DNA of 64,000 bases from Spirosoma endbachense (lineage in GTDB: Bacteria > Bacteroidota > Bacteroidia > Cytophagales > Spirosomataceae), in the NCBI RefSeq assembly GCF_010233585.1, contig NZ_CP045997.1:5620065-5684064 (forward strand), in the 5' to 3' direction. This document shows positions 8,159 to 44,391 of the stretch, one piece after another. The position numbers and the translations under genes are program-made. How positions within the stretch are numbered: the stretch's first letter is position 1; every line of letters begins with the position of its first letter. The notes under the pieces were generated by a model that ran no database searches, had not been told where the DNA came from, and saw only the letters and a program-made list of their open reading frames with translations.

Positions 8159-8175
8159 GGTTACACGGTTTTAAT

Positions 8176-9237: not shown

Positions 9238-9247
9238 GGCCCACCCC

Positions 9248-12710: not shown

Positions 12711-12739
12711 ACGTAGCTGACGATCTGTGCAGCATTTCT

Positions 12740-12793: not shown

Positions 12794-12796
12794 TAC

Positions 12797-13777: not shown

Positions 13778-13928
13778 TATCAGGATTCAAATTTCCCTCC
13801 TGTCGTCGCTTTCTGTCAGAAGGTGTCAGGGCCGTTCATACTCAGTATAGCTGGCTGGAAGTTACATGATCGGCGTATTTAGCTAACTGGGCAATCGGCA
13901 TGTGTACGGACTAAGCGAATAAAAACAG

Positions 13929-14807
13929 TTAATTGACTGGCTGGCTTTGCAAAATATTCCACTGCACTTGTCCCGGTAATAAACGATAAACGGGGATTTG
14001 AATCTTATACTGCTGGCAATACCGTTTGATGGCCGAATCGATCTCTTCGGCTGAGTAACGGGAAGAAAAGTGACCCAGAATTAGGGTGTCGATCTTCAAT
14101 TGAGCCAAATCCCTTAACACCTCTTCCAGGGTACTGTGACGATTACGGGTCGGGTCAACCTCTTTGATGTCCTGACGGTTCAAAAAAGTGGCTTCATGGA
14201 TTAGGATACCCGTGTGGTTCCATTGTGCCAACTGGTCTGCCGGAGTATCGCCCGAATAACCTAATAGATTCGATCGGATCTCCTCTAACATTATTTCCCG
14301 GCCGCCCGCCAGAGCCATCTGAGTCAACTGCTCCTGGGGTAGACCTGCCAACTCGGCTTTGAGTTTGTGTTTGAGTTGATAGAGTTGATAGCTCACGCTT
14401 TTTATCTGCTGCGGTTGGGCATTAGCCACATGGTTGTTGCGGAGAGCCTGCACATACATGTCTTTTTGAATCGCTACGCTTTGCTGATGGGCCAGACCCT
14501 GCCAGCTGGTTTGACTGACACGAGCATCAAATTGCTTGGAAAATACCTCCAGCGCCGAAATTGACCGTGCGTCAGTCGGGAAATAAAGGTGTGGGAGCCC
14601 TTCTCGGGCGATGAGTTCATTGAGCCGCAACAAACCGGTCAGGTGATCCCGATCGGCGTGCGAGAGAAATATGTGGTCAATTTTACGGGATTTTTGCAGC
14701 AGTGTAGGGGCCACACCGTCTCCGGCATCGAACAGCAGTCGGAGTTCTTCGATGAAATACCAGGTAGAGAACAGAGCCGTCGAATAGCCTGTGATGGTTA
14801 GATTCAT
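13929..14807 (-). CDS. Metallo-beta-lactamase-fold protein of the RNase Z-like group
   Basis: A 292-residue metallo-beta-lactamase-fold hydrolase. The metal motif reads SHADRDHLTG (His50, Asp52, Asp54, His55), so the second His of the usual HxHxDH is replaced by Asp. Further ligands are suggested by HEATF near 205 and LGHFSSRYS near 245, the latter typical of RNase Z-like enzymes. The start LTITGYSTALFSTWYF lacks the GTGxxxP signature of true tRNase Z. It may process RNA or a phosphodiester, but a different small substrate is equally possible. It is last in a run of minus-strand genes, with a 256-bp gap to the next MBL gene that holds no other recognised feature. Confidence 0.75.
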   Translation of the reverse strand: MNLTITGYSTALFSTWYFIEELRLLFDAGDGVAPTLLQKSRKIDHIFLSHADRDHLTGLLRLNELIAREGLPHLYFPTDARSISALEVFSKQFDARVSQTSWQGLAHQQSVAIQKDMYVQALRNNHVANAQPQQIKSVSYQLYQLKHKLKAELAGLPQEQLTQMALAGGREIMLEEIRSNLLGYSGDTPADQLAQWNHTGILIHEATFLNRQDIKEVDPTRNRHSTLEEVLRDLAQLKIDTLILGHFSSRYSAEEIDSAIKRYCQQYKIQIPVYRLLPGQVQWNILQSQPVN

Positions 14808-28100: not shown

Positions 28101-29032
28101 CTAAAGGTGATTCGACCTAAGACCCTCGTGTCTGTTACGAGCTGATTATCGCAATACGTTTGGCTGGAGGAGGGTGCTGCTGAAGAATTTCCTTGTTCGT
28201 CTTTATCCCGAATGTACTTTGTCTCTGAACCCATCACTTTATAGATGACTCGCGATGAAGGCCCATAAGTAAAAGTAATTTGATCTGACAGGTCGGGCGA
28301 TATGATTTTGGTTAAATGCCAGGTTGAAATGTAGCTAGGCGGTGTGCGTAGGTTCATGGAAAAACCAGTACCATTGCTACAAATATTTGTTGAGGTCTGA
28401 TTTTCAGTTGCTTCGAATATGTATTCGGTTCCATCTTCGGTAATGACTGACCAGCCACCAGAGCGCATATTCTGTCCAAAAGGCGGTTTAATGAGGAATT
28501 TGTTTAGAAAACTTGAATGGACTACGCCAGCCTGGTCAAAGTAAAACTTACCCGAATAGCCTCCAAAATTAAAACTGAACAGGTCGGGTTGGGTGTCAAT
28601 TAGGCCGTCGGCTGCCTGCCTTAATTTTTGGACATCGTTATGCACCTGAGCGATATGAGGAGCCCCATTAAAGTAGCCATTAGCTTGCTCGTCGGGTAAA
28701 CCACGCATACTACGCGTAATAACCCCGCCTGCTATCAAACTCCAACCTAACCCAACAGTACTAGCCTGGTCTTCTAGTTTATGCCCTCCGGCATGATAAG
28801 ACAGACCAACCGATAGACTCAAGCGCTTGGTCTTGATCTCAAACATTGGTATGCTGATATTGGGAACACCGGTGAACAAACTAACCGGTACATCGCCATA
28901 TTTTGCTAGAGCTGCGGCATTGGGCGAGGGCGGGAATACATCTGGCAAAACCGCCGGTTTTATTTGTGCCAGGGTTGTGGTATACCCATTCGTGAGTATG
29001 ACAAAAAGCGTTACAAATAGTAGTTGCTTCAT
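25187..29032 (-). CDS. RHS-like secreted protein with putative-Ig and 3-coathanger-type C-terminus
   Basis: From the ATG at 29032 this gives 1281 residues with a signal peptide (MKQLLFVTLFVILTNGYTTTLAQ). A longer frame to 29068 adds 12 unlikely residues. The N-terminus (GDVPVSLFTGVPNISIPMFE, then LSVGLSYHAGGHKLED and GLGWSLIAGGVITRSMRG) is the Bacteroidota RHS/SpvB-like start. A few YD-type units appear near 1080-1110 (TYYEYDKLARLERIRNNN). There is no RHS core and no toxin tip. Instead come a He_PIG/cadherin-like domain (PEGEALTYSINGLPNGLSF) and a C-terminal repeat (INPEATVQLKAGQLIQLKPG) like the 3-coathanger stack. It is a large surface protein, perhaps an ancestral or tip-less RHS shell. 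Its start is 121 bp from the lipoprotein stop. Confidence 0.7.
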   Translation of the reverse strand: MKQLLFVTLFVILTNGYTTTLAQIKPAVLPDVFPPSPNAAALAKYGDVPVSLFTGVPNISIPMFEIKTKRLSLSVGLSYHAGGHKLEDQASTVGLGWSLIAGGVITRSMRGLPDEQANGYFNGAPHIAQVHNDVQKLRQAADGLIDTQPDLFSFNFGGYSGKFYFDQAGVVHSSFLNKFLIKPPFGQNMRSGGWSVITEDGTEYIFEATENQTSTNICSNGTGFSMNLRTPPSYISTWHLTKIISPDLSDQITFTYGPSSRVIYKVMGSETKYIRDKDEQGNSSAAPSSSQTYCDNQLVTDTRVLGRITFSNGYIDFDYVLGSRSDLPGAQTLKRVGLYDSQNNQIKEFILEQNYFIYETGLTKLKLTKVQEQRSNFNPQATFPRPAVAVLASLPAYTFEYFDKGTSLNTHNRYAQDHWGFYNGIDNPLTTFVPERQLTNTKGTPITFPGANRNPTLAGSQTFTLKRLNYPTGGYTDFTYELHDVVEPGLPFTNKATPTTLSISDNNPTPREFEINSGDTNTQTFISLNMTTPPCNNSTVSDCGGASGFPAGCTQVIIEKCLSTSNPSTGFPGFPTNSCTLWGQPIILTGYFKNLTCNSIALANGRYRLKVNGGNGGHYTVNLSYYDKEIEFAIDGTALPNKKVGGLRIKKISTVASASDLNPIIKTYSYRNSSGISTGKVLSVPLYSYPTKVYACDKNGTCGTFDYIVNSSSSNVTLGTAAGSTVSYTSVIVANGENAENGQESHFFSFYPDLITGGFPFGPSTTFDHLRGLEQQKTVYKKNNSIFSPVDDIQNNYKTDAFAPTKISGLKVGYRLEGWNTGYNQDLSENYALGEFEEQTNWLYLETSQHRIYDSESANYTQSQQANVYGLNHLQLIKQTGINSDGTVYITELKYPADYPTATGALAEMRGSRNMQNSVVEKLDKVQRSGDSEKLLQGTLNTYATITNTGAVSRVVLQSVSQTELNSPSSSAPVYEEQQTFRYDSSANIVEAKRKGNRYTSYVWGYNAALPIAEIQNATASEVQAQLSTDGTLSDAATIRNVLNRLRSQLSQALVTGYTYFPHIGIESTTTPASLTTYYEYDKLARLERIRNNNHDIIKEYAYAYREPNTLPNNDETGNQPPSQSGSIPDQTISLNQAFTYTIPTNLFTDPEGEALTYSINGLPNGLSFTNGAITGTTTMPGDFLITLTATDSDGLSSSTSFFLTVSNCSGIDPYIVTGTFSSSTPVSLNAINQMETDASQPVTINPEATVQLKAGQLIQLKPGFTIKPGATFRAYNGPCN

Positions 29033-29153
29033 GAGCGCAATTGGTAAGATACGGTCAATATTGAGCAATTCATTAGTGAGTTAGGCACTAATAAGTTAGA
29101 CAAACCAATCGACAGGTTTGCGGGGTCAGCTTTTTAGCAAAAACAGAAAGTCG

Positions 29154-29642
29154 CTAACGACGTAAAAAGTAACGTGTATTATGATACAGATAGAAGTTCC
29201 AAAATATGAGCTCAGGAAAGATTAGGCTATCACCACGGCACTGCATTTGGTATGTTCTGCGATAATCAAAAACGTTGATAGTCGGCAGATCTCCCAGCCA
29301 ATCGAAGGAGATCTCATTATTAGCAACACGATACTTGAAGCGGATTAGACCGTCGTAATATTTCTTATTCTGGCAATCATAAAGATTGAAATAGCCGGTG
29401 CTATCCGTTTGAAAAACCAGCTTCATTTCCTGTGCGTTTCGATCAGCGATCGCTCCTGTGCCTTGTGTGAGGGTGCTACTGATTGGGCAGGTAGCATAAT
29501 CATTTCCCCATCTCCCCATATAGCAAGCATCAGTTGAGAGTGGTTGTAGACCGCCGGACCCCGTTCCCCGGCAGGATAACATACACAACCAAACGGCGAA
29601 CAACAATAAGGTAAGAATTGGTTTACGTTTAAGGTCAATCAT
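29154..29642 (-). CDS. Lipocalin-like lipoprotein
   Basis: A 162-residue lipoprotein: signal TLLLFAVWLCMLSC, lipobox Cys24 after Leu-Ser. The mature part opens with Gly/Ser and then CYMGRWGNDYATCPI. Alternating strands follow (EMKLVFQTDSTGYFNLYDC, then RFKYRVANNEISFDWLG), ending in FLRR. The strand pattern and the GRW motif resemble the lipocalin-like domains common in Bacteroidota lipoproteins. Several Cys could pair (CYM/CPI and DCQ/QCR). No function can be assigned. It lies between the RHS-like gene and an AT-rich 569-bp gap. Confidence 0.6.
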   Translation of the reverse strand: MIDLKRKPILTLLLFAVWLCMLSCRGTGSGGLQPLSTDACYMGRWGNDYATCPISSTLTQGTGAIADRNAQEMKLVFQTDSTGYFNLYDCQNKKYYDGLIRFKYRVANNEISFDWLGDLPTINVFDYRRTYQMQCRGDSLIFPELIFWNFYLYHNTRYFLRR

Positions 29643-30211
29643 TGTTTGGTGGGTTTATTGATTTTGAAATCAATTCTTAGTACTTAAAAAAGCAAATGCT
29701 ATTGCAACAGGGTCTTAGGTTGGATGGCTAGAAGCTTACTCTCTTTGTAATTAAACCTGCTGCCTGTAACACCACACGGAGTTAAAATAAAACCATATGG
29801 TAGTTAGCCCAGCGAACGATTTATGGGCAGCTCTATTCCTAAATAAACTAGCTTCTTAGGTTGTGAGTCAGTTGAGTAATGCTTGAGTTTGTCAATAATA
29901 GTATAGCAATATTTATACCAAAAATGATTATTTGTATATAAATATTGATAAAAGAATAACCTACCACTTTGCCGGCGAATACGGATTAGCCCGTTAGACT
30001 TTCCTGAATGACATCCCGATTAAATACTGCAATGAAGGATCGCGGCTCAGCAATCCATCCCGTTTATTGTCAGTAAGTAGGAGCAGCTGGATCTAGAGTT
30101 TGATGGGTCGCTTCTCTATTGATAAATTACTGCTTGCTAAGAATTAGAACACCATATAAGACCAAATAACGCCCAGTGTTGTGAATACTACGCCCAATGG
30201 AGAGTTCTCTT
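29643..30211. other. AT-rich 569-bp gap with a possible gene remnant
   Basis: This gap separates the lipoprotein gene from the small AT-rich gene. It holds an inverted run TTGATTTTGAAATCAA near 29658. On the minus strand, about 30085-29994 reads IQLLLLTDNKRDGLLSRD, then PSLQYLIGMSFRKV and a stop, preceded by a stop and no start codon. That looks like the C-terminal tail of a decayed gene, perhaps left by exchange of the RHS tip. Nothing else was recognised. Confidence 0.35.
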
Positions 30212-30730
30212 CTATTTCGGTATTGAATCGAAAAATATATATTCGCCAGAATAGTCATCTTGTGTAATAAGATAATTGTTCTCTGCCATTATCAATAAAA
30301 TTGTGTCTTTGTATTGTGGCATAATGTTATTGAGTTTAGCTAAACCATCTACACGTTTAGTATAGTTTTTTATTATAAATTGAATACCTTTCAGAATATA
30401 AAGCTGGTACAATTTCTTATTTATATTTAACTTATTGAAGTTTTTACAATTACAAAACTTAAATGCCAGTTTTTTTTCATGGACAATATACCGATATAGA
30501 AATTGAGAATAAGATAATTTTAAAGGCGATTTTTTATAAGTAAATAAGTACAGTGCATAATTGCTAGTAAAAAGATTCTCTATTTTTCCATCTTTTTCTA
30601 CGGATAAAACTACCCAATAGTCATTATTAGAGTAATTTTTAGATAAAAAATCACAATATTCTTTGTCGCTCAAAGGTTTTACAAATGAGCTAAATAAGAT
30701 AGCTAGTAGGTACGTGGAAAATATATTCAT
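30212..30730 (-). CDS. Small AT-rich exported protein, putative immunity partner of the RHS giant
   Basis: A 172-residue protein of no family I recognise. It starts 2 bp after the stop of the 4552-residue RHS gene, so the two are surely translated from one message. The N-terminus MNIFSTYLLAILFSSFVKPL looks like a signal peptide. The mature part is Lys-, Asn- and Tyr-rich and mostly helical, with Cys in KEYCDF and KFCNCKNF. The DNA is strongly AT-rich: bases 30361-30420 have 12 G or C in 60, far below the RHS shell. Position, size and composition fit an immunity gene acquired with the toxin tip. A periplasmic site is implied by the signal. Function is inferred from context only. Confidence 0.55.
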   Translation of the reverse strand: MNIFSTYLLAILFSSFVKPLSDKEYCDFLSKNYSNNDYWVVLSVEKDGKIENLFTSNYALYLFTYKKSPLKLSYSQFLYRYIVHEKKLAFKFCNCKNFNKLNINKKLYQLYILKGIQFIIKNYTKRVDGLAKLNNIMPQYKDTILLIMAENNYLITQDDYSGEYIFFDSIPK

Positions 30731-30732
30731 GA

Positions 30733-33700
30733 CTATAAATCTTTAGGGTCATTGGTTGGATCTTCAAGTTTACTCTTTTCAATAGGAATACCGTCGTAAG
30801 TTATTCTTAAAGGAATTCCAGCATCATATTTTCTTATTCTATTTTCAAAATTAACAGCTCTAATTTCAGCCGGATCACTTGCTGATGAACGTTTACCAAA
30901 CTCGCCTGCCATTTTGCCTTGGTCATAATCATATGAGTGGCGTAACTCATGTCCTAACGCTGTTTCAAGGGTTGCTTTTAATTTTCCATTTTCCAAATTC
31001 TTTTGTATACCTGTAAATCCAATAAAAGACCCTATTGGTTTACTATTTTCAGACATAAATGGCATTTCGGATCCGGAATCGTTCTTGTATTTATTTTGTA
31101 TCATGTGAATATTTTTACTATTCTCTAATACGTCAAATACTTTTCGGACAAATTTGTCTTTCGAGTTCTCAATCTTTGATAATGTTTTTTGAACAGCCAA
31201 AGCGAATGCATCCTTACCAGTATATAGTTTTCCACTTTTTCCATACAAGCTGCCGTTCTTGTACCTTAGATATTCAACTTTCCTCTTATCTTCTCCCGTA
31301 GTAATACTTATTATTATTTCCCTACCATCAATATCTTTATAAATGATAGGATTCGCAGCCGAAAATAAATAAGTACTTGAAGACAAATACTTTTCCGCCA
31401 ATGGATCTACTCCATTCCAGCGTCCAATGGCGGGATCATACATCCGGGCACCGTAATCTATCCAGCCTAACCCTTGCTGCTCCTCCTTGCCATTAAACTT
31501 AAACCGACTCATCGTTAACCCCGGTTGGCTATTCAAACCCGTCAAATCCAGCCCAAACGGATCATACTGGTTTTCTTGCACCACCAAGGGCGTTTGAGTG
31601 TCAGACGGATCGGTCTCCACTTTCTTCTCCCCACACCGACAGGCGATGCGCAAGTTCCCTAAATGATCCTTGAGGTGATACTCATAGCGGTAAAATGCAT
31701 TTTTAGCCGTATCGGCAATGCCCGCCGTTAGGGTGGTGCTGGCCCGACCTGGCGGTAAAAGGCGCCCTTCCGCCGTAGGAATAAACTCCAGACCGTCCTT
31801 GTCATACACCAGCCCCGCTACGTAGTTATAGACCTTACCACTGCCAAAGTCGGCGTTGAGTTTCTGGCCACTAGCCGAGTAGGTGTAGGTTATATCGCCA
31901 CCCGTTTTATGGATGGTGCTGGGCAGGTTGAGGTAGTTGTAGTCGATACCAGTAATGCCTTTGCCCGAGTCGGTAATTAAGTTGCCATTAGCATCATAGG
32001 TGTAGTTGGCCGTTCCATCTTTGAAGAAGGCGTTCGGTGTACCGGGGTTGCTACCGGCATCGGTCACGCCACCTAACTGATTGGAGTTCCCGCCATTTTT
32101 GTAGGTGTAGGACAGATTATCGACCAACGCCCCCTGGAAGGTTCGTTTGAGGCTGGTGATGTTGCCGTTTTCATCGTAGGTGAGCCCATCGAGGGCAAAT
32201 ACAGCCTGGCCTTGTTGGGTTAATTTACCCGATTGGATTCGGTTGAGATTGTCGTAGGTAAACCCATAGGAATAGGGCTGTTTCGACTCAATTTCGTAGG
32301 GGATGGTGTCATCGCCTTTGCGTTGGGCTGTGCGGTAGTCCCACTGATTGATGTTGCCGACAGGGTCATAAGTCAGCTTCATGCCAAAATAATGCTTGTC
32401 GGCTGGCAGGAATCCGATGTTGAGGTCAGCGGGATCGTTGATTTTGGTGAGCCAGCCCCGCATCTGGTAGGTGTAGTCGATATTCTGAATACTACAGCCC
32501 AGCGTTTTGCGGGTCAGCTCACCAATGCCATTGTAGCGATGACGAGCTATGGGTTCCCAATATTGGCCTACACTGCCATCCGTAGCTGTAACGCCATCGG
32601 TTACGCGCTGGCAGATAGTTTTGATACGACTCCCGGCATCATACGCCGTTCGGTTCTCAATCAGCAGGTCGTTGAGGGTGGAGAGTTTATTCTCAATGCT
32701 GCGGCCAATGTAGTCGAGCTTAGAGGACGACCGGTCGAGACCTTCTTTGTGGTTCTCTGAAACGGTCTGAATCACCCGCCCCAGGTTATCGTAGTACGTG
32801 CTACTGATTAGGTAGGTACCTGTTCCCGACGTGGATTCGCCGAGAATCAGTGTTTTCGTACTAGTTGCCATACCTTTCAAATGGTCAGTTTTGTTGGCTA
32901 TACTATAGGCATGAGCTGAATCGAAGCCTTTTGCTTCGCCCCCATAGGTATCGTAATACGTCTGGGTCTGGATAACTCCCCCCTTTTTCGTGGCGATAAC
33001 CCGGTCCAAATCGTCGTAGTCAGTCGTAATTGTTGTGCCGTTTGCATCGGTAGAGGTAATTAGACGATCTCGGGCATCGTAAGTCATAATCATAACCCCA
33101 GCTCCCGGCACTTTCTTTTGGGTCATGCGGCCCCTTGTGTCGTAGTCGTAACCAAACAGCAGGTCGCCCGCAAACGGATCGAAACTACCATTAAGGGCTG
33201 CACTAGATTTAGGCGGTACAACGCAACGCAGCCAGCCAAAGTCGTCAAAAGCATAGAGTGTCGTGCGACCTGATGCCACTTTGCCCACTACGCGCCCTTC
33301 CTTATCTTTATACTCAATGATTTTGTCGCCGTTTTCATCGGTACTTTCGGTCACGTACAACTGACCGGCCGCATAGTTCGATACGCTGATGGTTTTCGAG
33401 CTAAAATCATAGGTTAGCAACGGTAGTTCGCCCGCCGAATTGGTTCGGTAAGCCATCTGCATCGCCGTATTACCACCCGGTGCAGTTTTGGTAAGCACAC
33501 GATTCAGCGGGGAAGCTTCAAACGTACTGGTGGAGAAGGCATTACCAGCCTTATCGGGTAAACCAGTATAATAGCCACTGACGCTACCTACAGCCGAAGG
33601 GCGGAAAGCTCCATTGTTAGTCGGGTCGGCATAAGGCATGTATTTTATCGGTTCGCGACCAAAGGCATCATAGGCTATCGGCACAACAATGTCGGCCACG

Positions 33701-36700
33701 GGTGTTCCAGTGGTTTTACCCCCTGTTGCCACATTAACCTTCTGAATCGGTCGGCCCAGGCCATCGAAGTAGGAAATGGTTTGTGAAACACTGCTGCCGC
33801 CCGCATCCAGATAAACACTCTCCTGCACAAAATTCTGCCCGGAACTACCCCGGTTACTGGCAGCAACGGGCGGGTTTTCGGTATCTTTTACTGCTGGCAA
33901 GTCGCAATCCTGGCACGTACAGGTAAAGGAACTAGGTACTACTGACAATGATAGACTGGCACTGATTGTACAACCACTGGGTATGGTAGCCACTACTGTA
34001 TAGGAGCCAGCCATAGCTGTGGTAGCTTTGGGAACTGTTACCTTTGAGCCCGTACCCGTATAGCTGTTCGGGCCCGTCCAGTCGTAAACAATTGGCCCAG
34101 CCACCGTCGATGACATAGCCGCTGTCAGTGTCAGACTTTCACCCTCCCGGTAAATAGCTTGTGGAGAGCTGACTGTCAGGCTAGGGGCACCCGTCAGTAC
34201 CACACTTACCGAACCACTGGTCGTGCAGAAGCCCTGCGTAGCCGTGACGGAATAAGTGGCTACACTCGATCCCGATGTTGCTACCGTCGATATGCCCGTT
34301 GTTGAGGTATAAGTGGTCGAAACACCGGCGCTTGTTGTGGCAGATGCCGGAACTGTTGTGAAACTCTGACCACTTTGTGTGAAGGACATCAGACTGTCAG
34401 GGCCCGGACCACTCCATGCATATGTAATCGTACCCGCTGTAGCGCTTACTGGCCCAGTTGGTGCCACCGACAAGCTAACCGGGCTTCCGCACGAAAGCGA
34501 CGTTGGTGTAGCACTGGCCACCAGTGAGAACGAACAGGGGAGAATACCTACCGAGATTCCCACACTGGTTGTACAGGTCGGATTACTGCTCCGACTTACT
34601 ACATAGGTCGTGCTTTTAGCGGGTGTAACAGCAATGGTGTTTCCAGTGAAGGTTTGCCCACCCGGCAATGCTGTCCAGCTCACCACATCCGTTTGGATAG
34701 CAGTCGCGGTATTGACGCCTGTTACCAGCTTATAACTATCGGACGATCCACCCAATGCCGCCGAAAGCGCAGCTGTGCCGGTTGTCTGGGTTTTGTTATC
34801 GGCAATCGACTCGAATTGCCAGTAGGAGAGTAATCCTGCTTCCTGACCCGTCAGCAGTCGTTTGTAATCGCGGGCAATGTCGGTCGTTGAGCGAGCCGTG
34901 TTCCAGAGTCGTACTTCATCGACAGCCCCCCAGTAGCGACCATATTCGCCATCGGGGACCCCTGTGATGTAGTTATAGGGGTAAATAATCTTGTTCTGAG
35001 GGGGACTCACGTTGCTCACCTTAGCTACGCCATCGATGAGCAGTGTTGCCACATTATTCTGGAAGACAACAGCCACATGGGTCCAGTCCGTGATGGGTAT
35101 ACGGTAGTCGAGAATCTGTTGAAGATAATTGGCGGTGTGCCCCACTAGCCGAATCCCATCTTTACCGGCTGCCACGCCCAACCCGGCATAGTTCGAGTTA
35201 TACCTGGCCCCGTCGTAGCGGGGATACAGCACATAGCGTTCGTTGGTATTATCGCCCGAGAGATTAACCTCGGGTTTGACCCAGGCCTCCCAGGTAAACG
35301 TTCCTGTCAGGCTTTGCGGTTGGCTGGACGGCGTAAAAGTAAGCCCTTGATTCGTATAGAGAGCATTACTGCTATTGAAGGGTGTACCTTCGATCCACAA
35401 TGAAACGGGGCTACCGGCCACAATACTATATGAACTGGCCACGGCTGTCAGAGTACACGGTGCCTGAACGACGCTTATCGCTATGGGAATAGAGCAGGCC
35501 ATGTCTGACCGGGTAACGGTATACGTTGTACTTTGGGTCGGCGAAACAGAGATGCTATTGCCCGTATAGATCTGACTACCGGGCATGGCTGTCCAGGTAA
35601 CGACACTCGTCTGAGCGGTAGGATCTGTGCTGATGCCCGTAACCAACGCATGCGTATCTGGATTGCCTCCTACTGTCGCCGATAAGCCAGAGTTGCCTGT
35701 GGCCGGGGTGACACCAGCCCCATTAACGGATTCAAAACGCCAGTAGGCAAGTAATCCTGTTTCCTGCCCGCTCAGGACCTGTTTGTAGTCGCGGGTAATC
35801 TCGGTCGTTGAACGAGCCGTATTCCACAACCGAACTTCATCGACCGCACCTTTGTAGCGACCAAAATCTCTGGACCAGGGCAAACCGGTGATGTAGTTGG
35901 AAGGGTACATGATTTTACCCTGAGGAGGAGTCACATTACTGGCTTTAACCTGTCCATTGATCAACAGAATTGCTACATTATTCTGAAACACAACGGCAAT
36001 GTGGGTCCAGTCCGTGATGGGTATACGGTAATCGAGAATCTGCTGAAGGTAGTTGGCGGTGTGCCCAACCAGCCGAATCCCATCTTTACCAGCTGCCACG
36101 CCCAACCCGGCATAAACTGATGAGTAATTTGCTCCATCAAACCAGGGATAGAGTACGTAGTTTTCGTTGGTGTTATCGCCCGAGAGGTTGTTGTCGGGTT
36201 TAACCCAGGCTTCCCAGGTAAATGTATTGGTAAGCCCCTGTGGTTGACTGGAAGGGCTGAAGGTAGTCCCTTCATTGGTCCAGATGGCATTGCCGCTGTT
36301 GAAAGGAGTTCCTTCTACCCACAATGAGACAGGGCTGCCCGAAGTAGTGCTATACGAACTGGCCCTGGCAGACAAGGCGTCGATACGGATCGATTTTGTA
36401 ACAAGCCCACAACTAGTCGTTGGCTCTGGAACGTCCTGATTGACTCCCCGCACTGATAAACGGTACTGACCAACCGGTAGATTAGTCAGTGTTGCAGTGC
36501 TACTACTCCACGGGCTAACGACCGAATACGAGCCAGGAGCCTGTTGACTTTCGAGCTGATACTGAACAACGAGCTGATTCGGTTGGCTAAGCGTAGTGCT
36601 GACTACGATGCTTCCGGTAGCTGCCGTACTGCTTGACGTGCAAATGACCAGTGGTTCTCCAATGGTTAGTGAACCAATAGTCGTTAGACTAACTGACGCC

Positions 36701-39700
36701 GGTAAGCTGACGCAGTAAGAAGATTGTTCGCACGTTGCACTATAGCTTTGATTGCTGGTAAGCGCCGGGGTGATCAATACCGGTCCTGTATCATTGGTAG
36801 ACCAGCGGACAGTACCCGCCGAACAAGTGGCCGTCAAGGTAACGCTTGTTCCAGAGCAAACCTGTGTACCTGAAGTCGTTAGCGTAGGCGCCGTTGGGAG
36901 TGCATTTATAGTTAACACAGTTGGACTAACTTCGCCTTCAGTTAGTGGATTACTACTGATAACCCGAATCCGATAGCCATTGCCTGGTGGTACACTGGCT
37001 GGGAGCGTTGCGCTAATAGGGCTACTAGTGTCGCTGCCTGGTGTGGTTTCGCCGATGGATAGAGGTGAACTAAAGCTGCCACTACTATCAGATAACTGGG
37101 CAGTGAATTTATTTCCTGAACCAAAATCACCGGTTGTAGAGAACGGTATGCTCAGAACAGATCCAGGGCACACAATGCTGGGAGTAATAGTCAGAGTCTG
37201 AATAACAGGGCCATTTACCGTTATAATTACCTCTGTTGACGGCGAGCAACCCCCTTCAGCATAACTGGCTACGACCGTATAAGAACCGCTCATGTTGGTA
37301 TTGGCACCAAGAATGCTCAATTGAGCACCAGTCGACGTGAAGCCGGCCGGGCCATACCAGATGTAGCTTGTAGCATCAGCCGCTGTTGCGGTTAAGGATA
37401 TTGTCTGGCCGGTCGTATAACTCCGTATGCCGCTCACCGTTGGGCCAGGACGAACCATGATCTGAACCTGATTGGAGTTACTACTTTCAGCACAGTCTAG
37501 TTGACAGATTGCATAATAGGTGGCTGTAGTTGCTGGATTGAAGGTGATTGATGATCCGGTCATACCATTCGACCAGTTGATCGTAGTTCCGCTTTCGCAG
37601 CCGCTAGCCGAAAGGGTGACGGATTCACCACTGCAAATTGCTAGTGCTGAGGTAGCAACAGTTGGGGCCTGTAGATTTAGAAAATGAACGGTCACTGCGG
37701 CCGTATCGCTTTGGCAATTTGCTGCATTGGTGCAACGAACCCCAAAGGTTGTTGTCTGACTTACATGTACGACTACGGTTGGCCCTGTCAATGTACCAGA
37801 TGGCAACTCCCATTTTACCATATCTGAGCAGCCACTGGCTGTCAGCGTAACACTGCGGGCCGTTGATACGGCACCACAGGATGCTGTGACCACTACTGGT
37901 TTAGCCGGTGTGGGTATGATCTGATAGAATAGCGTTATGGAGTCGCCGGTACAATCGATACCCGAATCATACTGGTTATTCCCATTGGCATCAACATAGG
38001 GAGTGAAAGACTGTATGATTGTTCCCTCTATTCCTGTAGTGGCTACTGTATAGGGGCCGTGACGTTGATTGAAGATCGATGCCGCCGTGGCAGCATTAAG
38101 ATCATTCATTGGCCTGGTTGTGGGTAAATCCGCCACGCCATTCGACGTTAAACGTTCTATGAGCCGGACGTGTGACGAAGGCCAACTGAGGTCACTTAAT
38201 GTCAGATAGTCTCCTGAACAGATAATAGCTGTCAGATTAGTTGGCCCATTAGTCGTGGATGCGGCTACAGGAATGAGGTTTGACCCAGCGGCCGAGAATC
38301 CAAAAACAGGTCTTTGAATAACTACAACAGTGGCCGTCGCCGATGGTGATAAGCACCCCTCTGCATTACAATTGGCTATGTAGCTAGTCGTTGCCGTTAA
38401 ATTGCCAGTAATAAGTACATTACCTGTGCCACCGTTCGACCAGACAACATCGCCAGTGGTACAGCCAGCTGTTAGGGTGGTGGATTGTCCAGCACAAATA
38501 GTAGTGGAAGTAGGCGTTAAAGTAGGTGCATCTGCTCCGAAGAACAACGGATGAGAGGAGAACTCCCAGTTACCTGTTGTATCGGTTACACGAACCTCAT
38601 GCCGTCCCTGTGCGAAAACTGTCGGAACAGGCCAGTTAAATTCAAACTTGTCGTATGTACCCGTTGCGCCGTGTACCTGATTTATATATGCCCTAACATC
38701 TGGGCGGGGGCCATCAGCCCAAACTGTTGCCTGAAGAACGCCATCAATATAAATTCTGACTTTTTGCGACTGTTCGTCATTATTCACATCCACCAGCCAG
38801 CCCCGGATTCGTGTACAGGTTGCTTCATCGACAGTACCTGTCAAGACAATTGGTTCCTGACAACTTACCGTGATTTGAGTTGTTGCCTGTACCGTGTTAA
38901 AACAGCCAGATTTGCCTAATGTAAGCGTGTATTCATACGTCCCGGTCGTAGCTGGAGCAGTTAGTGTTAAACTGGACCCAGTTTGTTCGGTTACTCCGTG
39001 CCCCGACCATGTGTAAATGACGTTTCCGCAGCCAATTCCCTGACAACTCCCAGACAAGTTTACTGATTGGCCACAGCTAACAGACTGTGGTGATGCCGAG
39101 GCTGATGCTGAGAAGGCACAGGGGTCGTTTGTGGGGGTACAGCTATCAAGGGTGACCGAGGTCTGGGTATAATCACAACTCAGACCGGAGGAGCCGTAAC
39201 AGAAAGCGGTATAAGTCCCTGCTTGATCGACTTGCCGGCTGTCATACCCGTTGAAGTTGGGGGTATTGTAAGGGCTATCGGCCCAGGCGATGGCGCCCGT
39301 GCAGCCCGTCAGGGTTAGCGTGACGCTGCCATTACAGAGCGAGTAGCTGGAAGGGGTGATGGTGATGGGGCTGGCTGTGGAACTGATGGATAGCCACTGC
39401 TCCTGATACTGACCACAGTTGGTGGCAGTTTGTTTCTGCTGAAGCTGATTATCGGTGCACTGGTAAGTGTTGGTCGTTTCCCAGAGGGGGCTACAATCAT
39501 CCCCACAGGTGATGTTGATCTCCATGGTGGCGATGTAGGCTGGGCTTGAACAGCCGTCTTTGGATAAGGTGAAGGAATAGTTGTAGAGCTGGTTGACCTC
39601 GGGTGCCGTCACATAGAGGATGGGTGGATCAGTCTGATCGGTCCACCCAGTAGTAGTCCAGGCGTAGGTGGTTCCTGGACAATCAGGCCCCAGACAGCCT

Positions 39701-42700
39701 CCGGTGAGCATAATCTGATTTCCGCACCTTGTGGCTGTCGTGCTGGCTGAGATGGTGGCGGTGAAGTTACATCTGGCGGGTTGGGTGCAGTGGGTAGTGA
39801 TTAGGGCTGAGGCTTGCGGGGTGTTTGGGCAGCCGTCTTTGGCGAGCGTCAGGGAGTAGGTCTGGGAGCCTGCTGAAGAGGGGGCTGTTAGCGTTATGGG
39901 CACGGTGGTCAGTCCGTCGGCTCCGGGTCCAGTCCAGAATATAGTTATGTCCTCACAGCCCGTTCCCTGACATCCCCCCAGGCTGAAGGCAGTGCCACAG
40001 CCGAGACTTTGGTTAGTCATGTTGGTGATGGAGAAGTCACAGGGGTCATTTGTGGGGGTACAGCTATCGATGGTGACCGAGGTCTGGGTGTAATCACAAC
40101 TCAGACCAGAGGAGCCGTAACAGAAAGCGGTATAGGCGCCAGCTTGATTGACTTGTCGACTGTCATACCCGTTGAAGTTGGGGGTATTGTAAGGGCTATC
40201 GGCCCAGGCGATGGCGCCTGTGCAGCCCGTCAGGGTTAGCGTGACGCTGCCATTACAGAGCGAGTAGCTGGAGGGAGTGATGGAGATGGGGTTGGCCGTA
40301 GGGTCGCTGTTCCGCCACTCATCAGTATAGGTGGGGCAATCGAGGTTAGTATTCGTCCATTTTCGTTGGAGTTGTCCCTCTTCACAGCGGTAGTCAGCAG
40401 TTATCTCCCAGGTGGGATTACAGCCACAGGAGACATTTAGTTGAGCGGTCGTGGTGGCTACATGGGTGCAGCCGAGTTTACGAATCGAGAAGGTATAGAC
40501 GAACGTCCCGGCCGTGTTGGGCGTCAGGGTGAGGTCGGCATTGGTTTCTCCATTGAGGTTGGGGCTCTCCCACTGGTAGGACACCCCCCCGCACTCCCCG
40601 GTGCAGACTCCCTGCAACGTGATGGTACTGTTACAGAGAATGGAGGAGTTGGCCGGGTTTACTGATGCTGAGAAGGCACAGGGGTCAGAAGTTGGGGTAC
40701 AGTTAGATCCATTGGTTATGGTAATAGATTGTGTGGTGGTATTGCAGGAGCCGATGCAGCCAGCCGTGTAAATGCCTGCACTGACCTGTCTGGGATTGGT
40801 GGTAGACCCATCCTCAACCCAATAAAAATAACCGTTGCAATTAGTTGCCTGTAGGGTGGCGGTCTCCGTTCCACACAAATCTGTTTTGTCGGCAACCACA
40901 CTTACCGGGGTTGTCGGTCCACTCAATATGCTTCCTGGCCGCTCATCCCCAAAGGTTGGCGAGCATGGTTTATTGTCCTGTTCATACCAGCGGTAGTTAT
41001 TTAATTCGTCACAATCCTGGCGGTAGTTTTCCCAGAGAGGGGTACAATCCTCACAGTTAACCTCGACTGCTGTGGTAGTACGTTGGTTCTCGCAGCCAGC
41101 TTTAGATATAGTCAGGGTGTAGCTGTAAGTGCCTGATGCACCAGGTGTGGTGATCGTGTTGTTAACATTTGATCCCGAGATACCATTTCCCGACCAGCTA
41201 TAGGTGACTCCGTCACAACCAGCACCTGAACAACTTCCGGTTAGGGTGATGGAGGAGTTACAGAGGGCCGTGGCTGGATTTGATGCGACTGGGGTAAAAT
41301 CGCAGAGGTTGGCAGGAGGAGTACTGCTAATGGTAATGGCGACTGAAGTAACATCTTCGGCCTCATTGGGGCAACCGTCTTTAGTCAGTCCAAGCTCATA
41401 GTAGAGGGGTTGGTTGACATTGGGGGCAGTTAAGGTGAGACTGGCCTGGCCAGTAAGATCGGTCCATCCGGTGGTCGACCACCGGTAGACAACTCCGTCA
41501 CAACCGGTACCCTGACAGCCTCCTGTGAGGGTGATGGTCTGACCACAAGTAACGGTTTGGGGTGTTGCTGATGCGGTTGGCGCGAAGTCGCAGGGGTTGG
41601 CGGGTGGCGTACAACTGACATCGAGTTGAGCGGTCGTGGTGGCTACATGGGTGCAGCCGAGTTTACTAATCGAGAAGGTATAGACGAACGTCCCGGCCGT
41701 GTTGGGTGTCAGGGTGAGGTCAGCATTGGTTTCTCCATTAAGATTGGGTCCATTCCAGTTGTAGTAGACCCCCGCACATTCTCCGGTACAGATTCCCTGA
41801 AAAGTAGTTGTATTGGAGCACAGGACGGAAGATCGGGCCGGGGATACTGATGCTGAGAAGGCACAGGGGTCGTTTGTGGGGGTACAGCTATCGATGGTGA
41901 CCGAGGTCTGGGTGTAATCACAACTCAGACCAGAGGAGCCGTAACAGAAAGCGGTATAGGCGCCAGCTTGATTGACTTGTCGACTGTCATACCCGTTGAA
42001 GTTGGGGGTATTGTAGGGGCTATCGGCCCAGGCGATGGCGCCCGTGCAGCCCGTCAGGGTTAGCGTGACGCTGCCATTACAGAGCGAGTAGCTGGAGGGA
42101 GTGATGGTGATGGGGTTGGCCGTGGAGCTGATGGATAGCCATTGCTCCTGGTACTGACCACAGTTGGTGGCGGTTTGTTTCTGCTGAAGCTGATTATCGA
42201 TGCACTGGTAAGTGTTGGTCGTTTCCCAAAGAGGGGTACAATCACCACAGGTAACATTCACTGGTGCGGGTGCGGTGTGATTGGATTGGTTGGGGCAATC
42301 GGGCTTCGAGAGAGTGAGTTCGTAATAAACGGTCTGGTTGAGTTGGGGGGCTGTGACCTGGATGGTGCTTTGGCCGTTGGGGTCTCTCCAGTCTGTGGTT
42401 GTCCATTGGTAGCTGACATCTGCACAACCAGTCCCCTGACAGCCGCCCGACAGGGTGATTGATTGGCCACAACTGACAGACTGCGGGGATGCTGAAGCAG
42501 TAGGGGCGAAGTCGCAGGGATCATTTGTGGGGGTACAGTTAGATCCATTGGTTATGGTAATAGATTGTGTGGTGGTATTGCAGGAGCCGATGCAGCCAGC
42601 CGTGTAAATGCCTGCACTGACCTGTCTGGGATTGGTGGTAGACCCATCCTCAACCCAATAAAAATAACCGTTGCAATTAGCTGCCTGTAGGGTGGCGGTC

Positions 42701-44391
42701 TCCGTTCCACACAAATCTGTTTTGTCGGCAACCACACTTACCGGGGTTGTCGGTCCACTCAATATGCTTCCTGGTCGCTCATCCCCAAAGGTTGGCGAGC
42801 ATGGTTTATTGTCCTGTTCATACCAGCGGTAGTTATTTAATTCGTCACAATCCTGGCGGTAGTTTTCCCAGAGAGGGGTACAATCCTCACAGTTAACCTC
42901 GACTGCTGTGGTAGTACGTTGGTTCTCACAGCCTGCTTTAGCCATCGTCAGGGTGTAGGAGTAAGTACCCTGCGTGGAGGGGGTGTTTCCAGTCCCATCG
43001 GCACTGATGCCATTGCCCGACCAACTGGGAGTGATACCCGTACAGTCGCTGCCGGAGCAGCTACTGGTAAGAGTAATTGGGGTACTGCAATTTGCTGTGG
43101 CGGGAGCCGATGCGGTCGGAGTAAAGTTGCAGGCGTTAACAACGGGACAGTCTTCTTTTATTTCTACTCCGTTACTCGAATCATGTGTGTTGGGACAATC
43201 TTGGGACAAGCACTGAGCATAATATATTCCGCTTGACGATACTGAAATTTTTGATACATCATCTTCATTATAGATATAGCTATTTTTATACCAGGTTATG
43301 TCGCCACTACAGCCCGTCACAGAAAGCGTAACGGTAGATCCTACAGTCGGGCAAACCTCATTAGAACTTGCGGTAACTGTAATGAAATTGGCTATTTCGC
43401 AATGGGGTGCATTGGCGTCTGCTGTAATTGCAGTTGTAATTGGATTACTTGCCCTGTACGCTATTTTGCGGTAGTAAGCTGTCGATCGTTCATCCCGAAT
43501 GAAGACAAATCCACTCTGGCTGTTGGTTTCAGTAACTGAATCGGGGCTAAAAGAAAGACTATCAATGCTGTACTGATACGTTGGTAATGCATTCTGAACA
43601 TGGATTTTTAGAGCGATAATTCCCTTACTTGGATGACCAATTTTGATTTTGAGTGGCTTTTCAAACAGTTGGCGATTTATGTCTGATAATGTATATGGGC
43701 TATTTTTAGTAGGGCGGGTAATGGAATTACTAAAAGCTCGTATGTTTAATCCCTGCTTTTTCTCAAAAAAGCTGTTTGAGGTTCCTTCCCTTGGGCCTCT
43801 TAGCAAGGTGAAAGAGGCATCCTCAAATGGCTTGGTAAATCGGCCCTTGAGGGTATAACTAACTGAAGGGGTAGTATTTATAGTAAGCTCCTTGCCAATG
43901 TAATCATAGTAATTACCACCCGTCTGCTCAAAACCTTCGGGCATAAGAACCTTTAAGCTGAATGATCGCTGCGACTCAAAAAAGAACAGTTGACCAGGCA
44001 GAATCGGCAGTAATTCGGCAATGATTGTTATCTCAAGCTCTTCTCCGATGCTCACACTCGTTTTATTGGCCCGCATCGAAAAGCGGATTGGGTCAGGCCC
44101 GGCTAGTTTCTGAATAGGAAGAGACCCTGACATTGGTAAATGCCCAATTATAGACAGGCTATGAGGTGTATTCGTAATAAGCTTAGCTGGTCCTTCTATT
44201 GATTTCAGCGCCCCCTTATTCTCCATTGGTTTTCGAAAAACACGCTTAACGTTAGTGCGCAAGGTTGGAGGACGAACAGGTAATTTAGCCGTGAGCGGAG
44301 GACGGCGCTTCGCTTCATCTATAAAGTGTATTGTAGAAAATAATGAAACGCTGCATCCTAAAAGTGTAAACAGAAGTAAAAATTGTTTCAT
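30733..44391 (-). CDS. Giant RHS polymorphic-toxin-like protein with Ig, LamG and zincin tip
   Basis: A 4552-residue secreted protein. Order: signal peptide (1-20); an N-terminal Ig-like region (to about 400); nine Cys-rich Ig-like repeats (about 418-1850); a domain with GTVDEATCTRIRGWLVDVNN (about 1850-1955); further Ig-like units (about 1955-2670); and two LamG-like domains in tandem (about 2675-3285). More Ig-like sequence follows. A Bacteroidota RHS start (YFDGLGRPIQKVN, about 3520) leads into YD repeats and the RHS core (GARMYDPAIGRWNGVDPLAE, about 4305). The tip (about 4358-4552) holds GHELRHSYDYDQG, an HExxH with His4481 and His4485, and Glu4509 in AEIRAVNFENRIR, which fits a gluzincin-type metallopeptidase. 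An AT-rich partner gene follows after 2 bp. A cell-contact toxin is the best reading; adhesion by the long stalk is likely. No type IX C-terminal signal was seen. Confidence 0.85.
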   Translation of the reverse strand: MKQFLLLFTLLGCSVSLFSTIHFIDEAKRRPPLTAKLPVRPPTLRTNVKRVFRKPMENKGALKSIEGPAKLITNTPHSLSIIGHLPMSGSLPIQKLAGPDPIRFSMRANKTSVSIGEELEITIIAELLPILPGQLFFFESQRSFSLKVLMPEGFEQTGGNYYDYIGKELTINTTPSVSYTLKGRFTKPFEDASFTLLRGPREGTSNSFFEKKQGLNIRAFSNSITRPTKNSPYTLSDINRQLFEKPLKIKIGHPSKGIIALKIHVQNALPTYQYSIDSLSFSPDSVTETNSQSGFVFIRDERSTAYYRKIAYRASNPITTAITADANAPHCEIANFITVTASSNEVCPTVGSTVTLSVTGCSGDITWYKNSYIYNEDDVSKISVSSSGIYYAQCLSQDCPNTHDSSNGVEIKEDCPVVNACNFTPTASAPATANCSTPITLTSSCSGSDCTGITPSWSGNGISADGTGNTPSTQGTYSYTLTMAKAGCENQRTTTAVEVNCEDCTPLWENYRQDCDELNNYRWYEQDNKPCSPTFGDERPGSILSGPTTPVSVVADKTDLCGTETATLQAANCNGYFYWVEDGSTTNPRQVSAGIYTAGCIGSCNTTTQSITITNGSNCTPTNDPCDFAPTASASPQSVSCGQSITLSGGCQGTGCADVSYQWTTTDWRDPNGQSTIQVTAPQLNQTVYYELTLSKPDCPNQSNHTAPAPVNVTCGDCTPLWETTNTYQCIDNQLQQKQTATNCGQYQEQWLSISSTANPITITPSSYSLCNGSVTLTLTGCTGAIAWADSPYNTPNFNGYDSRQVNQAGAYTAFCYGSSGLSCDYTQTSVTIDSCTPTNDPCAFSASVSPARSSVLCSNTTTFQGICTGECAGVYYNWNGPNLNGETNADLTLTPNTAGTFVYTFSISKLGCTHVATTTAQLDVSCTPPANPCDFAPTASATPQTVTCGQTITLTGGCQGTGCDGVVYRWSTTGWTDLTGQASLTLTAPNVNQPLYYELGLTKDGCPNEAEDVTSVAITISSTPPANLCDFTPVASNPATALCNSSITLTGSCSGAGCDGVTYSWSGNGISGSNVNNTITTPGASGTYSYTLTISKAGCENQRTTTAVEVNCEDCTPLWENYRQDCDELNNYRWYEQDNKPCSPTFGDERPGSILSGPTTPVSVVADKTDLCGTETATLQATNCNGYFYWVEDGSTTNPRQVSAGIYTAGCIGSCNTTTQSITITNGSNCTPTSDPCAFSASVNPANSSILCNSTITLQGVCTGECGGVSYQWESPNLNGETNADLTLTPNTAGTFVYTFSIRKLGCTHVATTTAQLNVSCGCNPTWEITADYRCEEGQLQRKWTNTNLDCPTYTDEWRNSDPTANPISITPSSYSLCNGSVTLTLTGCTGAIAWADSPYNTPNFNGYDSRQVNQAGAYTAFCYGSSGLSCDYTQTSVTIDSCTPTNDPCDFSITNMTNQSLGCGTAFSLGGCQGTGCEDITIFWTGPGADGLTTVPITLTAPSSAGSQTYSLTLAKDGCPNTPQASALITTHCTQPARCNFTATISASTTATRCGNQIMLTGGCLGPDCPGTTYAWTTTGWTDQTDPPILYVTAPEVNQLYNYSFTLSKDGCSSPAYIATMEINITCGDDCSPLWETTNTYQCTDNQLQQKQTATNCGQYQEQWLSISSTASPITITPSSYSLCNGSVTLTLTGCTGAIAWADSPYNTPNFNGYDSRQVDQAGTYTAFCYGSSGLSCDYTQTSVTLDSCTPTNDPCAFSASASASPQSVSCGQSVNLSGSCQGIGCGNVIYTWSGHGVTEQTGSSLTLTAPATTGTYEYTLTLGKSGCFNTVQATTQITVSCQEPIVLTGTVDEATCTRIRGWLVDVNNDEQSQKVRIYIDGVLQATVWADGPRPDVRAYINQVHGATGTYDKFEFNWPVPTVFAQGRHEVRVTDTTGNWEFSSHPLFFGADAPTLTPTSTTICAGQSTTLTAGCTTGDVVWSNGGTGNVLITGNLTATTSYIANCNAEGCLSPSATATVVVIQRPVFGFSAAGSNLIPVAASTTNGPTNLTAIICSGDYLTLSDLSWPSSHVRLIERLTSNGVADLPTTRPMNDLNAATAASIFNQRHGPYTVATTGIEGTIIQSFTPYVDANGNNQYDSGIDCTGDSITLFYQIIPTPAKPVVVTASCGAVSTARSVTLTASGCSDMVKWELPSGTLTGPTVVVHVSQTTTFGVRCTNAANCQSDTAAVTVHFLNLQAPTVATSALAICSGESVTLSASGCESGTTINWSNGMTGSSITFNPATTATYYAICQLDCAESSNSNQVQIMVRPGPTVSGIRSYTTGQTISLTATAADATSYIWYGPAGFTSTGAQLSILGANTNMSGSYTVVASYAEGGCSPSTEVIITVNGPVIQTLTITPSIVCPGSVLSIPFSTTGDFGSGNKFTAQLSDSSGSFSSPLSIGETTPGSDTSSPISATLPASVPPGNGYRIRVISSNPLTEGEVSPTVLTINALPTAPTLTTSGTQVCSGTSVTLTATCSAGTVRWSTNDTGPVLITPALTSNQSYSATCEQSSYCVSLPASVSLTTIGSLTIGEPLVICTSSSTAATGSIVVSTTLSQPNQLVVQYQLESQQAPGSYSVVSPWSSSTATLTNLPVGQYRLSVRGVNQDVPEPTTSCGLVTKSIRIDALSARASSYSTTSGSPVSLWVEGTPFNSGNAIWTNEGTTFSPSSQPQGLTNTFTWEAWVKPDNNLSGDNTNENYVLYPWFDGANYSSVYAGLGVAAGKDGIRLVGHTANYLQQILDYRIPITDWTHIAVVFQNNVAILLINGQVKASNVTPPQGKIMYPSNYITGLPWSRDFGRYKGAVDEVRLWNTARSTTEITRDYKQVLSGQETGLLAYWRFESVNGAGVTPATGNSGLSATVGGNPDTHALVTGISTDPTAQTSVVTWTAMPGSQIYTGNSISVSPTQSTTYTVTRSDMACSIPIAISVVQAPCTLTAVASSYSIVAGSPVSLWIEGTPFNSSNALYTNQGLTFTPSSQPQSLTGTFTWEAWVKPEVNLSGDNTNERYVLYPRYDGARYNSNYAGLGVAAGKDGIRLVGHTANYLQQILDYRIPITDWTHVAVVFQNNVATLLIDGVAKVSNVSPPQNKIIYPYNYITGVPDGEYGRYWGAVDEVRLWNTARSTTDIARDYKRLLTGQEAGLLSYWQFESIADNKTQTTGTAALSAALGGSSDSYKLVTGVNTATAIQTDVVSWTALPGGQTFTGNTIAVTPAKSTTYVVSRSSNPTCTTSVGISVGILPCSFSLVASATPTSLSCGSPVSLSVAPTGPVSATAGTITYAWSGPGPDSLMSFTQSGQSFTTVPASATTSAGVSTTYTSTTGISTVATSGSSVATYSVTATQGFCTTSGSVSVVLTGAPSLTVSSPQAIYREGESLTLTAAMSSTVAGPIVYDWTGPNSYTGTGSKVTVPKATTAMAGSYTVVATIPSGCTISASLSLSVVPSSFTCTCQDCDLPAVKDTENPPVAASNRGSSGQNFVQESVYLDAGGSSVSQTISYFDGLGRPIQKVNVATGGKTTGTPVADIVVPIAYDAFGREPIKYMPYADPTNNGAFRPSAVGSVSGYYTGLPDKAGNAFSTSTFEASPLNRVLTKTAPGGNTAMQMAYRTNSAGELPLLTYDFSSKTISVSNYAAGQLYVTESTDENGDKIIEYKDKEGRVVGKVASGRTTLYAFDDFGWLRCVVPPKSSAALNGSFDPFAGDLLFGYDYDTRGRMTQKKVPGAGVMIMTYDARDRLITSTDANGTTITTDYDDLDRVIATKKGGVIQTQTYYDTYGGEAKGFDSAHAYSIANKTDHLKGMATSTKTLILGESTSGTGTYLISSTYYDNLGRVIQTVSENHKEGLDRSSSKLDYIGRSIENKLSTLNDLLIENRTAYDAGSRIKTICQRVTDGVTATDGSVGQYWEPIARHRYNGIGELTRKTLGCSIQNIDYTYQMRGWLTKINDPADLNIGFLPADKHYFGMKLTYDPVGNINQWDYRTAQRKGDDTIPYEIESKQPYSYGFTYDNLNRIQSGKLTQQGQAVFALDGLTYDENGNITSLKRTFQGALVDNLSYTYKNGGNSNQLGGVTDAGSNPGTPNAFFKDGTANYTYDANGNLITDSGKGITGIDYNYLNLPSTIHKTGGDITYTYSASGQKLNADFGSGKVYNYVAGLVYDKDGLEFIPTAEGRLLPPGRASTTLTAGIADTAKNAFYRYEYHLKDHLGNLRIACRCGEKKVETDPSDTQTPLVVQENQYDPFGLDLTGLNSQPGLTMSRFKFNGKEEQQGLGWIDYGARMYDPAIGRWNGVDPLAEKYLSSSTYLFSAANPIIYKDIDGREIIISITTGEDKRKVEYLRYKNGSLYGKSGKLYTGKDAFALAVQKTLSKIENSKDKFVRKVFDVLENSKNIHMIQNKYKNDSGSEMPFMSENSKPIGSFIGFTGIQKNLENGKLKATLETALGHELRHSYDYDQGKMAGEFGKRSSASDPAEIRAVNFENRIRKYDAGIPLRITYDGIPIEKSKLEDPTNDPKDL
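34540..36365 (-). repeat. Tandem duplication of LamG-like domains inside the RHS giant
   Basis: Two LamG-like (concanavalin-fold) units lie in tandem with a 924-bp (308-residue) step. The protein units share long stretches such as TFTWEAWVKP, GVAAGKDGIRLVGHTANY, LQQILDYRIPITDWTH and AVDEVRLWNTARSTT. Each ends in an Ig-like cap with TTYTVTRS or TTYVVSRS. The DNA is close but not identical. Such domains commonly bind sugars, so they may give the stalk surface affinity. Confidence 0.75.
38850..43140 (-). repeat. Nine cysteine-rich Ig-like repeats with near-identical DNA blocks
   Basis: Nine units each begin with a C(N/D/A)F motif and carry a middle such as GGCQGTGC and a Trp. Five CxPxWE-type modules of two kinds are interspersed. 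At DNA level, 40694-41091 and 42530-42927 are nearly identical (two differences seen by eye; 1836-bp step). Blocks 39102-39488 and 41847-42233 also match closely (2745-bp step), with a partial third copy around 40047-40300. All steps are multiples of three. The near identity implies recent duplication or gene conversion. Confidence 0.8.

Follow-up and report, generated by a model that had tools for sequence, protein, structure and literature searches.

What does a bacterium do with a protein of 4552 residues that joins a long stalk to an RHS shell and an enzyme-like tip? The gene for such a protein occupies 30733..44391 on the minus strand of a 64,000-nucleotide stretch (hereafter the window) of the complete 10.3 Mb genome of Spirosoma endbachense, and was proposed in an initial annotation to encode a contact-dependent weapon or adhesin that reaches its target with its own stalk. 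Reading the giant protein as a weapon is well supported by the comparisons reported here: a related species keeps the stalk with a different capsule and toxin, and the protein is therefore likely a weapon against rival bacteria. We think it probable that the locus encodes a secreted RHS-type polymorphic toxin with an unusually long stalk and a capsule encoded in two parts, by the giant gene and by a nearby partner gene. A stalk conserved where shell and tip differ, unrelated tips, an immunity-like next gene and a tip predicted to form its own domain agree with the weapon part of the initial proposal, which overlooked both the apparent splitting of the RHS capsule over two genes and the exchange of the locus as a whole block.

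Layout of the giant protein

The frame begins with ATG and ends at a single terminal stop codon, and is more than a chance open frame because a second species has a 4418-residue orthologue at the matching place. Its layout was confirmed as first described, with a signal-peptide-like start, nine Cys-rich Ig-like repeats, a GTVDEATCT domain, two LamG domains, an RHS shell and a tip, by a check of the frame and by Pfam and NCBIfam scans, the signal peptide being judged by eye, with no predictor, from the giant plus its relatives. The stalk ahead of the shell, initially put at roughly 3500 residues, measures ~3,497 residues, the shell ~859 and the tip 196. Pfam returned Laminin_G_3 in two stretches, DUF6443 at residues 3529-3643 and one RHS repeat, together with Ig_7, which falls slightly short of its cut-off, and, within the tip, Peptidase_M91 at a weak score, and NCBIfam returned Rhs_assc_core at residues 4276-4356 (E 3.4e-13). 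The giant has the RHS/YD repeats, the Rhs core and the predicted shell fold by which RHS polymorphic toxins are recognized. TRF detected no tandem array in the DNA of the giant gene, and PADLOC gave no match.

A conserved stalk and an exchanged capsule block

Genome G001, from another species of the genus, has the 4418-residue orthologue at the corresponding locus between identical flanking genes. DNA comparison with this genome revealed a block at 25414..33953 without any match, both flanks of which are 89-96% identical; the stalk DNA is 94% identical over 33953-39375 and 91% over 40058-43131. At the protein level, identity per 100 residues is 73-99% over residues 401-3500 (a region of which ~300 residues are missing in G001), falls to 38-57% over residues 3501-4300, and is near chance in the tip. 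The differing block comprises the shell, the tip, the immunity candidate, a 162-residue lipoprotein-like gene and the partner gene except its last ~75 residues, and its limits fall inside both the giant gene and the partner gene. The exchanged unit is thus larger than the tip alone, the block that was swapped running from the shell through to the partner. The initial annotation had predicted a kept stalk and shell with different tips in relatives; G001 bears this out with its kept stalk and different tip, and its shell differs too. The locus therefore offers a natural experiment in which the stalk is constant and the capsule block is exchanged. The end of the G001 protein gave no Pfam match; from its motif, we take it to resemble an ADP-ribosyltransferase.

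The 162-residue lipoprotein-like gene (29154..29642, minus strand), situated between the immunity candidate and the partner, has no Pfam or NCBIfam match, and an unrelated 213-residue gene (L086 16826-17467) occupies its place in G001.

The shell and its border with the tip

The RHS shell (residues 3498-4356; 31324..33900, minus strand) carries DUF6443 and the Rhs core, and its predicted fold matches solved RHS, TcC and teneurin shells. By fold, it aligns only with the later part of the solved capsules, namely 1318-2154 of TcdB2-TccC3. It ends in PIIYKDIDG (residues 4348-4356; 31324..31350, minus strand), a likely self-cleavage motif: in an alignment of 12 shells, residue 4356 is the last invariant column, and no invariant or near-invariant column lies past it. 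In RHS toxins, self-cleavage is carried out by the conserved Asp of a PxxxxDPxGL border (PMC8636562, consulted in excerpt). The border in the giant reads P-x4-DIDG, in which the P, the Asp and the Gly are kept and DPxGL becomes DIDGR.

Elsewhere in the genome, DUF6443 does not exceed its cut-off. The small RHS-repeat matches found there were considered as stored tip cassettes and rejected, as a query made of the tip plus its junction found only the giant in this genome and DUF6443 is above cut-off in the giant alone; in the stretches around these matches (L012-L017), frames of at least 110 residues were compared with the giant only, and no match was listed.

A metallopeptidase-like and exchangeable tip

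The tip (residues 4357-4552; 30736..31323, minus strand) is predicted, from its motifs, its modeled fold and its relatives, to be an independently folding zinc metallopeptidase of the M91/HopH1 type, with HELRH at residues 4481-4485 and EN at 4516-4517. H126, E127, H130, E154, E161 and N162, which make up the HExxH and [DE]N motifs, are invariant across 21 aligned tips. Against a gathering score of 25 bits, the PF14891 model scores 24.9 bits on the tip alone and 17.9 bits on the whole protein, and six of 15 close tip relatives carry this family. A Foldseek listing of the tip gave no placement, and a further comparison serves as a second look only, whose listing may leave out other matching families. 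As side observations, the metal motif is one residue longer (HExxxH) in the tips of L051, L052, L098 and L087, and the tip of L084 matches alpha/beta-hydrolase families.

Judged from sequence comparisons, the tip is an exchangeable module. The G+C content steps down from 0.51 (shell) to 0.34 (tip) and 0.26 (next gene). All five stalked loci compared show the first of these drops, and all four where a next gene was taken show the second, L084 being without a frame of at least 110 residues directly behind its tip. When the tip was searched together with its junction, 18 of 59 genomes, counting that of the window, gave a match, in most cases to the junction only, and rows of short cassette frames stand at the junction matches in G036 and G054. 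Junction-bearing frames numbered 41 in 22 of 28 scanned loci, some of which had been picked for their tip, and their ends form 32 sequence clusters. Among 1,356 scored candidates, 13 giant proteins (~2,500-8,000 residues) carry this shell at E <=1e-20. Twelve of them align to shell position 856-859 and continue with ends of 180-384 residues, whereas the alignment of the thirteenth (P0029) stops at 773, and this protein was excluded from the comparison of ends. No pair of ends among the window protein and these 12 matches at E 1e-3, giving thirteen mutually unrelated ends.

The initial annotation had named two outcomes that would speak against its proposal, a tip folding as part of the RHS shell and relatives having identical tips and no immunity gene. 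Neither was found: structure prediction gives the tip a fold of its own, the tip in G001 is different, and unrelated tips stand behind the same shell family.

A candidate immunity gene behind the tip

A gene for a 172-residue, exported-looking protein (30212..30730, minus strand) starts 2 bases past the stop codon of the giant gene and is, from its position and its C-terminal motif, likely the immunity gene of the tip. Besides the window, tip loci with open frames are L050, L051, L052, L053 and L062 (L054 was dropped, as its match holds stops), and in four of these five a stretch encoding an exported-looking protein of 166-179 residues lies directly behind the tip. Two loci, L098 and L100, were added by eye for their look-alike neighbors out of 10 further loci, the others of which have different neighbors. 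With a C-terminal score table built from six proteins, window left out, the window protein scores 18.7, a value reached by none of 20,000 shuffles and by none of 422 other frames (best 5.3), for a motif that was first spotted by eye with the window included and with the anchor pattern and two members (L098 and L100) chosen by eye. When each of the six was left out in turn, 0-2 of 3,000 shuffles reached the score for five of them, and 43 of 3,000 for L050. By eye, most of the related immunity-like genes look as if they encode lipoproteins, a hint that protection takes place outside the cytoplasm.

Whole-length comparisons are less telling. Pairwise alignment of the immunity candidates gave z up to 3.9, and homology is not proven by it. 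Whole-length leave-one-out profiles gave E values of 50 for the window, 56 for L050, 1.7 for L062, 8.7e-8 for L051, 3.9e-6 for L098 and 0.0024 for L100, in profiles that contained a wrong L053 piece, also in those of the other rows (the score table used the right one). An alignment search with the immunity protein found only itself and the L051 protein. Searched alone against 395 genomes, it gave nothing convincing: besides its own genome there were six matches, five of them having internal stops and the sixth lying inside a 1387-residue frame. Separately, tip and immunity-like stretch share one open frame with no stop between them in two distant genomes (L053 1321-2574 and L098 1006-2034), which may be a natural fusion or a sequencing matter.

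The presence of such genes bears on the identity of the target. Were the toxin aimed at eukaryotes met by the bacterium, such as protists, nematodes, plants or fungi, the next gene would have another role. This is improbable in our judgment, as a motif-sharing gene sits directly behind several such tips, the tips change fast behind the same shell, and the genes behind DUF6443 genes on two named plasmids are annotated as immunity genes. All three points are expected of anti-bacterial weapons, whereas the fold shared with other toxins is silent on the target.

A partner gene and a probable split capsule

The partner gene (25187..29068, minus strand; 1293 residues) is likely to encode the first half of the RHS capsule, as suggested by scans, linkage and fusion. 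It is fused to a shell in two other species (G036 and a Runella), adjoins a shell in all eight genomes of the genus that have it, and occurs in the same eight of 36 genomes that hold a shell match reaching the shell end. The partner is the probable other half of the capsule because it is fused to the shell in some species, linked to it in all eight genomes, and swapped together with it; the same three observations give the arrangement the look of a Tc-like capsule that is split and mounted on a stalk, so that the capsule is probably formed by two chains, the shell of the giant and the partner.

Alternatively, the partner may be a separate RHS-like protein and the shell of the giant may close alone, which we regard as the less likely possibility but one of some weight. 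Shell-type RHS genes without an adjoining partner exist in G018 and G035, and the partner has neither the SpvB domain expected of a Tc B chain, by Pfam matches at E up to 1, nor a useful relative among solved structures. However, in both G018 and G035 a partner that might work in trans lies at a different locus, a separate partner would leave the fusions and the co-occurrence in the same eight genomes unaccounted for, the limits of the exchanged block lie inside both genes, and the shell covers only the later part of TcdB2-TccC3. In further loci, the partner is spread over three frames in L084 (G016; 10970-14789), and the fused partner-shell protein in L079 (G036; 6390-12854), the end of which resembles an M23 peptidase, is followed by a row of cassette frames.

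Export

The type IX secretion system (T9SS) is the suspected exporter. Its component SprA is present in the genome, and the partners of the window and of G016 carry a C-terminal GCX_COOH tail, the sequence of which is shared by the G001 partner; judged by eye, this tail is missing from the partners in G018 and G005. No T9SS C-terminal sorting domain was found in the giant with NCBIfam. T9SS export has been proposed, though not proven, for another class of Bacteroidetes polymorphic toxins (PMC7073777, in excerpt).

An effector delivered by a type VI secretion system (T6SS) would have the RHS shell fold in common with the giant, as T6SS Rhs proteins do. Yet the giant has a signal-peptide-like start and no PAAR match in Pfam, and the VipB sheath was not found in the one genome searched, the complete genome of the window, with an E. 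coli control being positive. The missing VipB and PAAR matches disfavor this route, to which we assign hardly any likelihood.

The stalk

The stalk (residues 1-3497; 33901..44391, minus strand) has its signal-peptide-like start at 44332-44391. Its N-terminal 330 residues are matched in 22 of 36 genomes of the genus (own included), and residues ~88-222 form a segment common to many proteins of the genus. The nine Cys-rich Ig-like units (residues 421 to ~1845; 38857..43131, minus strand) start approximately at residues 421, 626, 843, 934, 1030, 1238, 1451, 1541 and 1758, and are followed by the GTVDEATCT domain (~residues 1852-1955; 38527..38838, minus strand), additional Ig-like parts, and two LamG-type domains at ~residues 2690-2890 (35722..36324, minus strand; best Laminin_G_3 stretch 2718-2865) and ~3000-3200 (34792..35394, minus strand; second Laminin_G_3 stretch), the limits of the GTVDEATCT and LamG domains having been set by eye. 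Residues 201-400 (43192..43791, minus strand), with 29-30% identity between the window and G001, constitute a second variable segment within the otherwise conserved stalk and may co-vary with the capsule block.

Six of the 13 shell-bearing giants have stalk segments in common at E 1e-10, and the precomputed Pfam lists of five (P0019, P0020, P0021, P0025 and P0028) include lectin- or adhesion-type domains, LamG among these and others that we take to be PA14, ricin-lectin, GLEYA or MAM. The genome of the window also contains a stalk paralogue (L090, G000:C1:7148000-7160000, at 386-7739) in two overlapping frames of 1377 and 850 residues, the second without an RHS match and followed by a gene for an exported-looking protein of 229 residues; the stalk may also occur with ends of a non-RHS kind. 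In L084 (1374-8629), from a genome that is 94% complete with 5% contamination, the stalk is split over two overlapping frames.

The very long Ig/LamG stalk, the shell fold common to teneurins, and this paralogue without RHS repeats in its second frame would suit a giant acting mainly as an adhesin or teneurin-like surface protein with a tip that is no toxin. Such a protein, however, has no need for unrelated ends of 180-384 residues behind the same shell, nor for a G+C drop at the border or an immunity-like neighbor, and we consider this role quite unlikely.

Proposed mechanism

In the secreted split-capsule toxin that we favor, signal peptides would direct the giant and its partner out of the cytoplasm, and the partner as the first part and giant residues 3498-4356 as the rest would form one RHS cocoon enclosing the tip. 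The ~3,500-residue Ig/LamG stalk would serve as an anchor for the toxin or attach to sugars on a neighboring cell; the tip, once released by cleavage at the conserved Asp of its border with the shell, would act as a zinc metallopeptidase and cut a protein of the competing bacterium, while the exported 172-residue protein would protect the producer.

Several observations weigh against this proposal. A suggested role of laminin-G parts is to fix such toxins to the producer cell (PMC3482391, in excerpt), so that the stalk need not reach outwards and may hold the toxin instead. The P and L within the DPxGL part of the border are not kept. One tip relative (G308; L052/L075) has no possible immunity gene behind the tip on that strand, and whole-length methods do not prove that the downstream protein of the window belongs to the proposed immunity family. 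The second shell loci of G018 and G035 lack an adjoining partner, and the giant, for which T9SS is a candidate exporter, has no T9SS sorting domain.

Tentatively, and at somewhat short of an even chance, we propose a T6SS-independent surface weapon of Bacteroidota that combines a lectin-bearing stalk of thousands of residues with a two-chain, Tc-like RHS capsule, in which the two parts of the capsule, the cargo and the immunity gene are swapped jointly as a block and the stalk is kept, and in which a new family of immunity proteins neutralizes the cargo metallopeptidase outside the cytoplasm. The locus bears on the route by which RHS toxins would be delivered in Bacteroidota that have no T6SS, and names a candidate second capsule chain so far annotated as a separate RHS protein.

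Comparison with known systems

Among the papers searched, none covers DUF6443 or Rhs together with Spirosoma, and none since 2022 combines teneurin-like with YD repeat, toxin and bacterial; a split RHS of Bacteroidota or a stalk of this kind is undescribed in the titles and abstract starts among the matches listed. The CdiA proteins of contact-dependent inhibition are giant surface sticks with an exchangeable tip and an immunity gene. The stalk of the giant, in contrast, is made of Ig/LamG domains, and assignment to this system was rejected, the two-partner secretion domain and haemagglutinin repeats not being among its Pfam matches at E up to 1.

With the T6SS Rhs toxins (Photorhabdus Rhs1, RhsA and Tse15), the giant shares the RHS shell fold, the Rhs core, a variable C-terminal toxin and an adjoining immunity-like gene (in part from PMC8636562), but in place of PAAR it has a start resembling a signal peptide, along with an Ig/LamG stalk of 3,500 residues; its capsule is apparently split, and its genome has no match to the T6SS sheath gene. 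The TcB/TcC capsule of Tc toxins resembles the proposed capsule, by fold alignment, in having two chains, the second with a variable toxin, but differs in that the partner in the window has no SpvB match or solved relative and that the stalk is on the TcC-like chain. TANFOR toxins (PMC7073777) likewise occur in Bacteroidota with a signal peptide, variable C-terminal toxins, immunity genes and suspected, unproven T9SS export, but the giant has another N-terminal domain; it has no TANFOR match in NCBIfam, a library not checked for a TANFOR model. Teneurins and SGS1 share the RHS shell fold but not the exchangeable tips and immunity-like neighbors. Tox-HopH1, or peptidase M91 (HopH1, NleD), shares HExxH and [DE]N with the tip and is known on RHS proteins and in Bacteroidetes, and the excerpted table of the 2012 survey lists no immunity family for it (PMC3482391); unlike there, an exported-looking, motif-sharing gene stands behind several such tips here and offers a candidate family. 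The system is thus a variant of the RHS polymorphic toxins, and its novelty would lie in a giant stalk that bears a split capsule.
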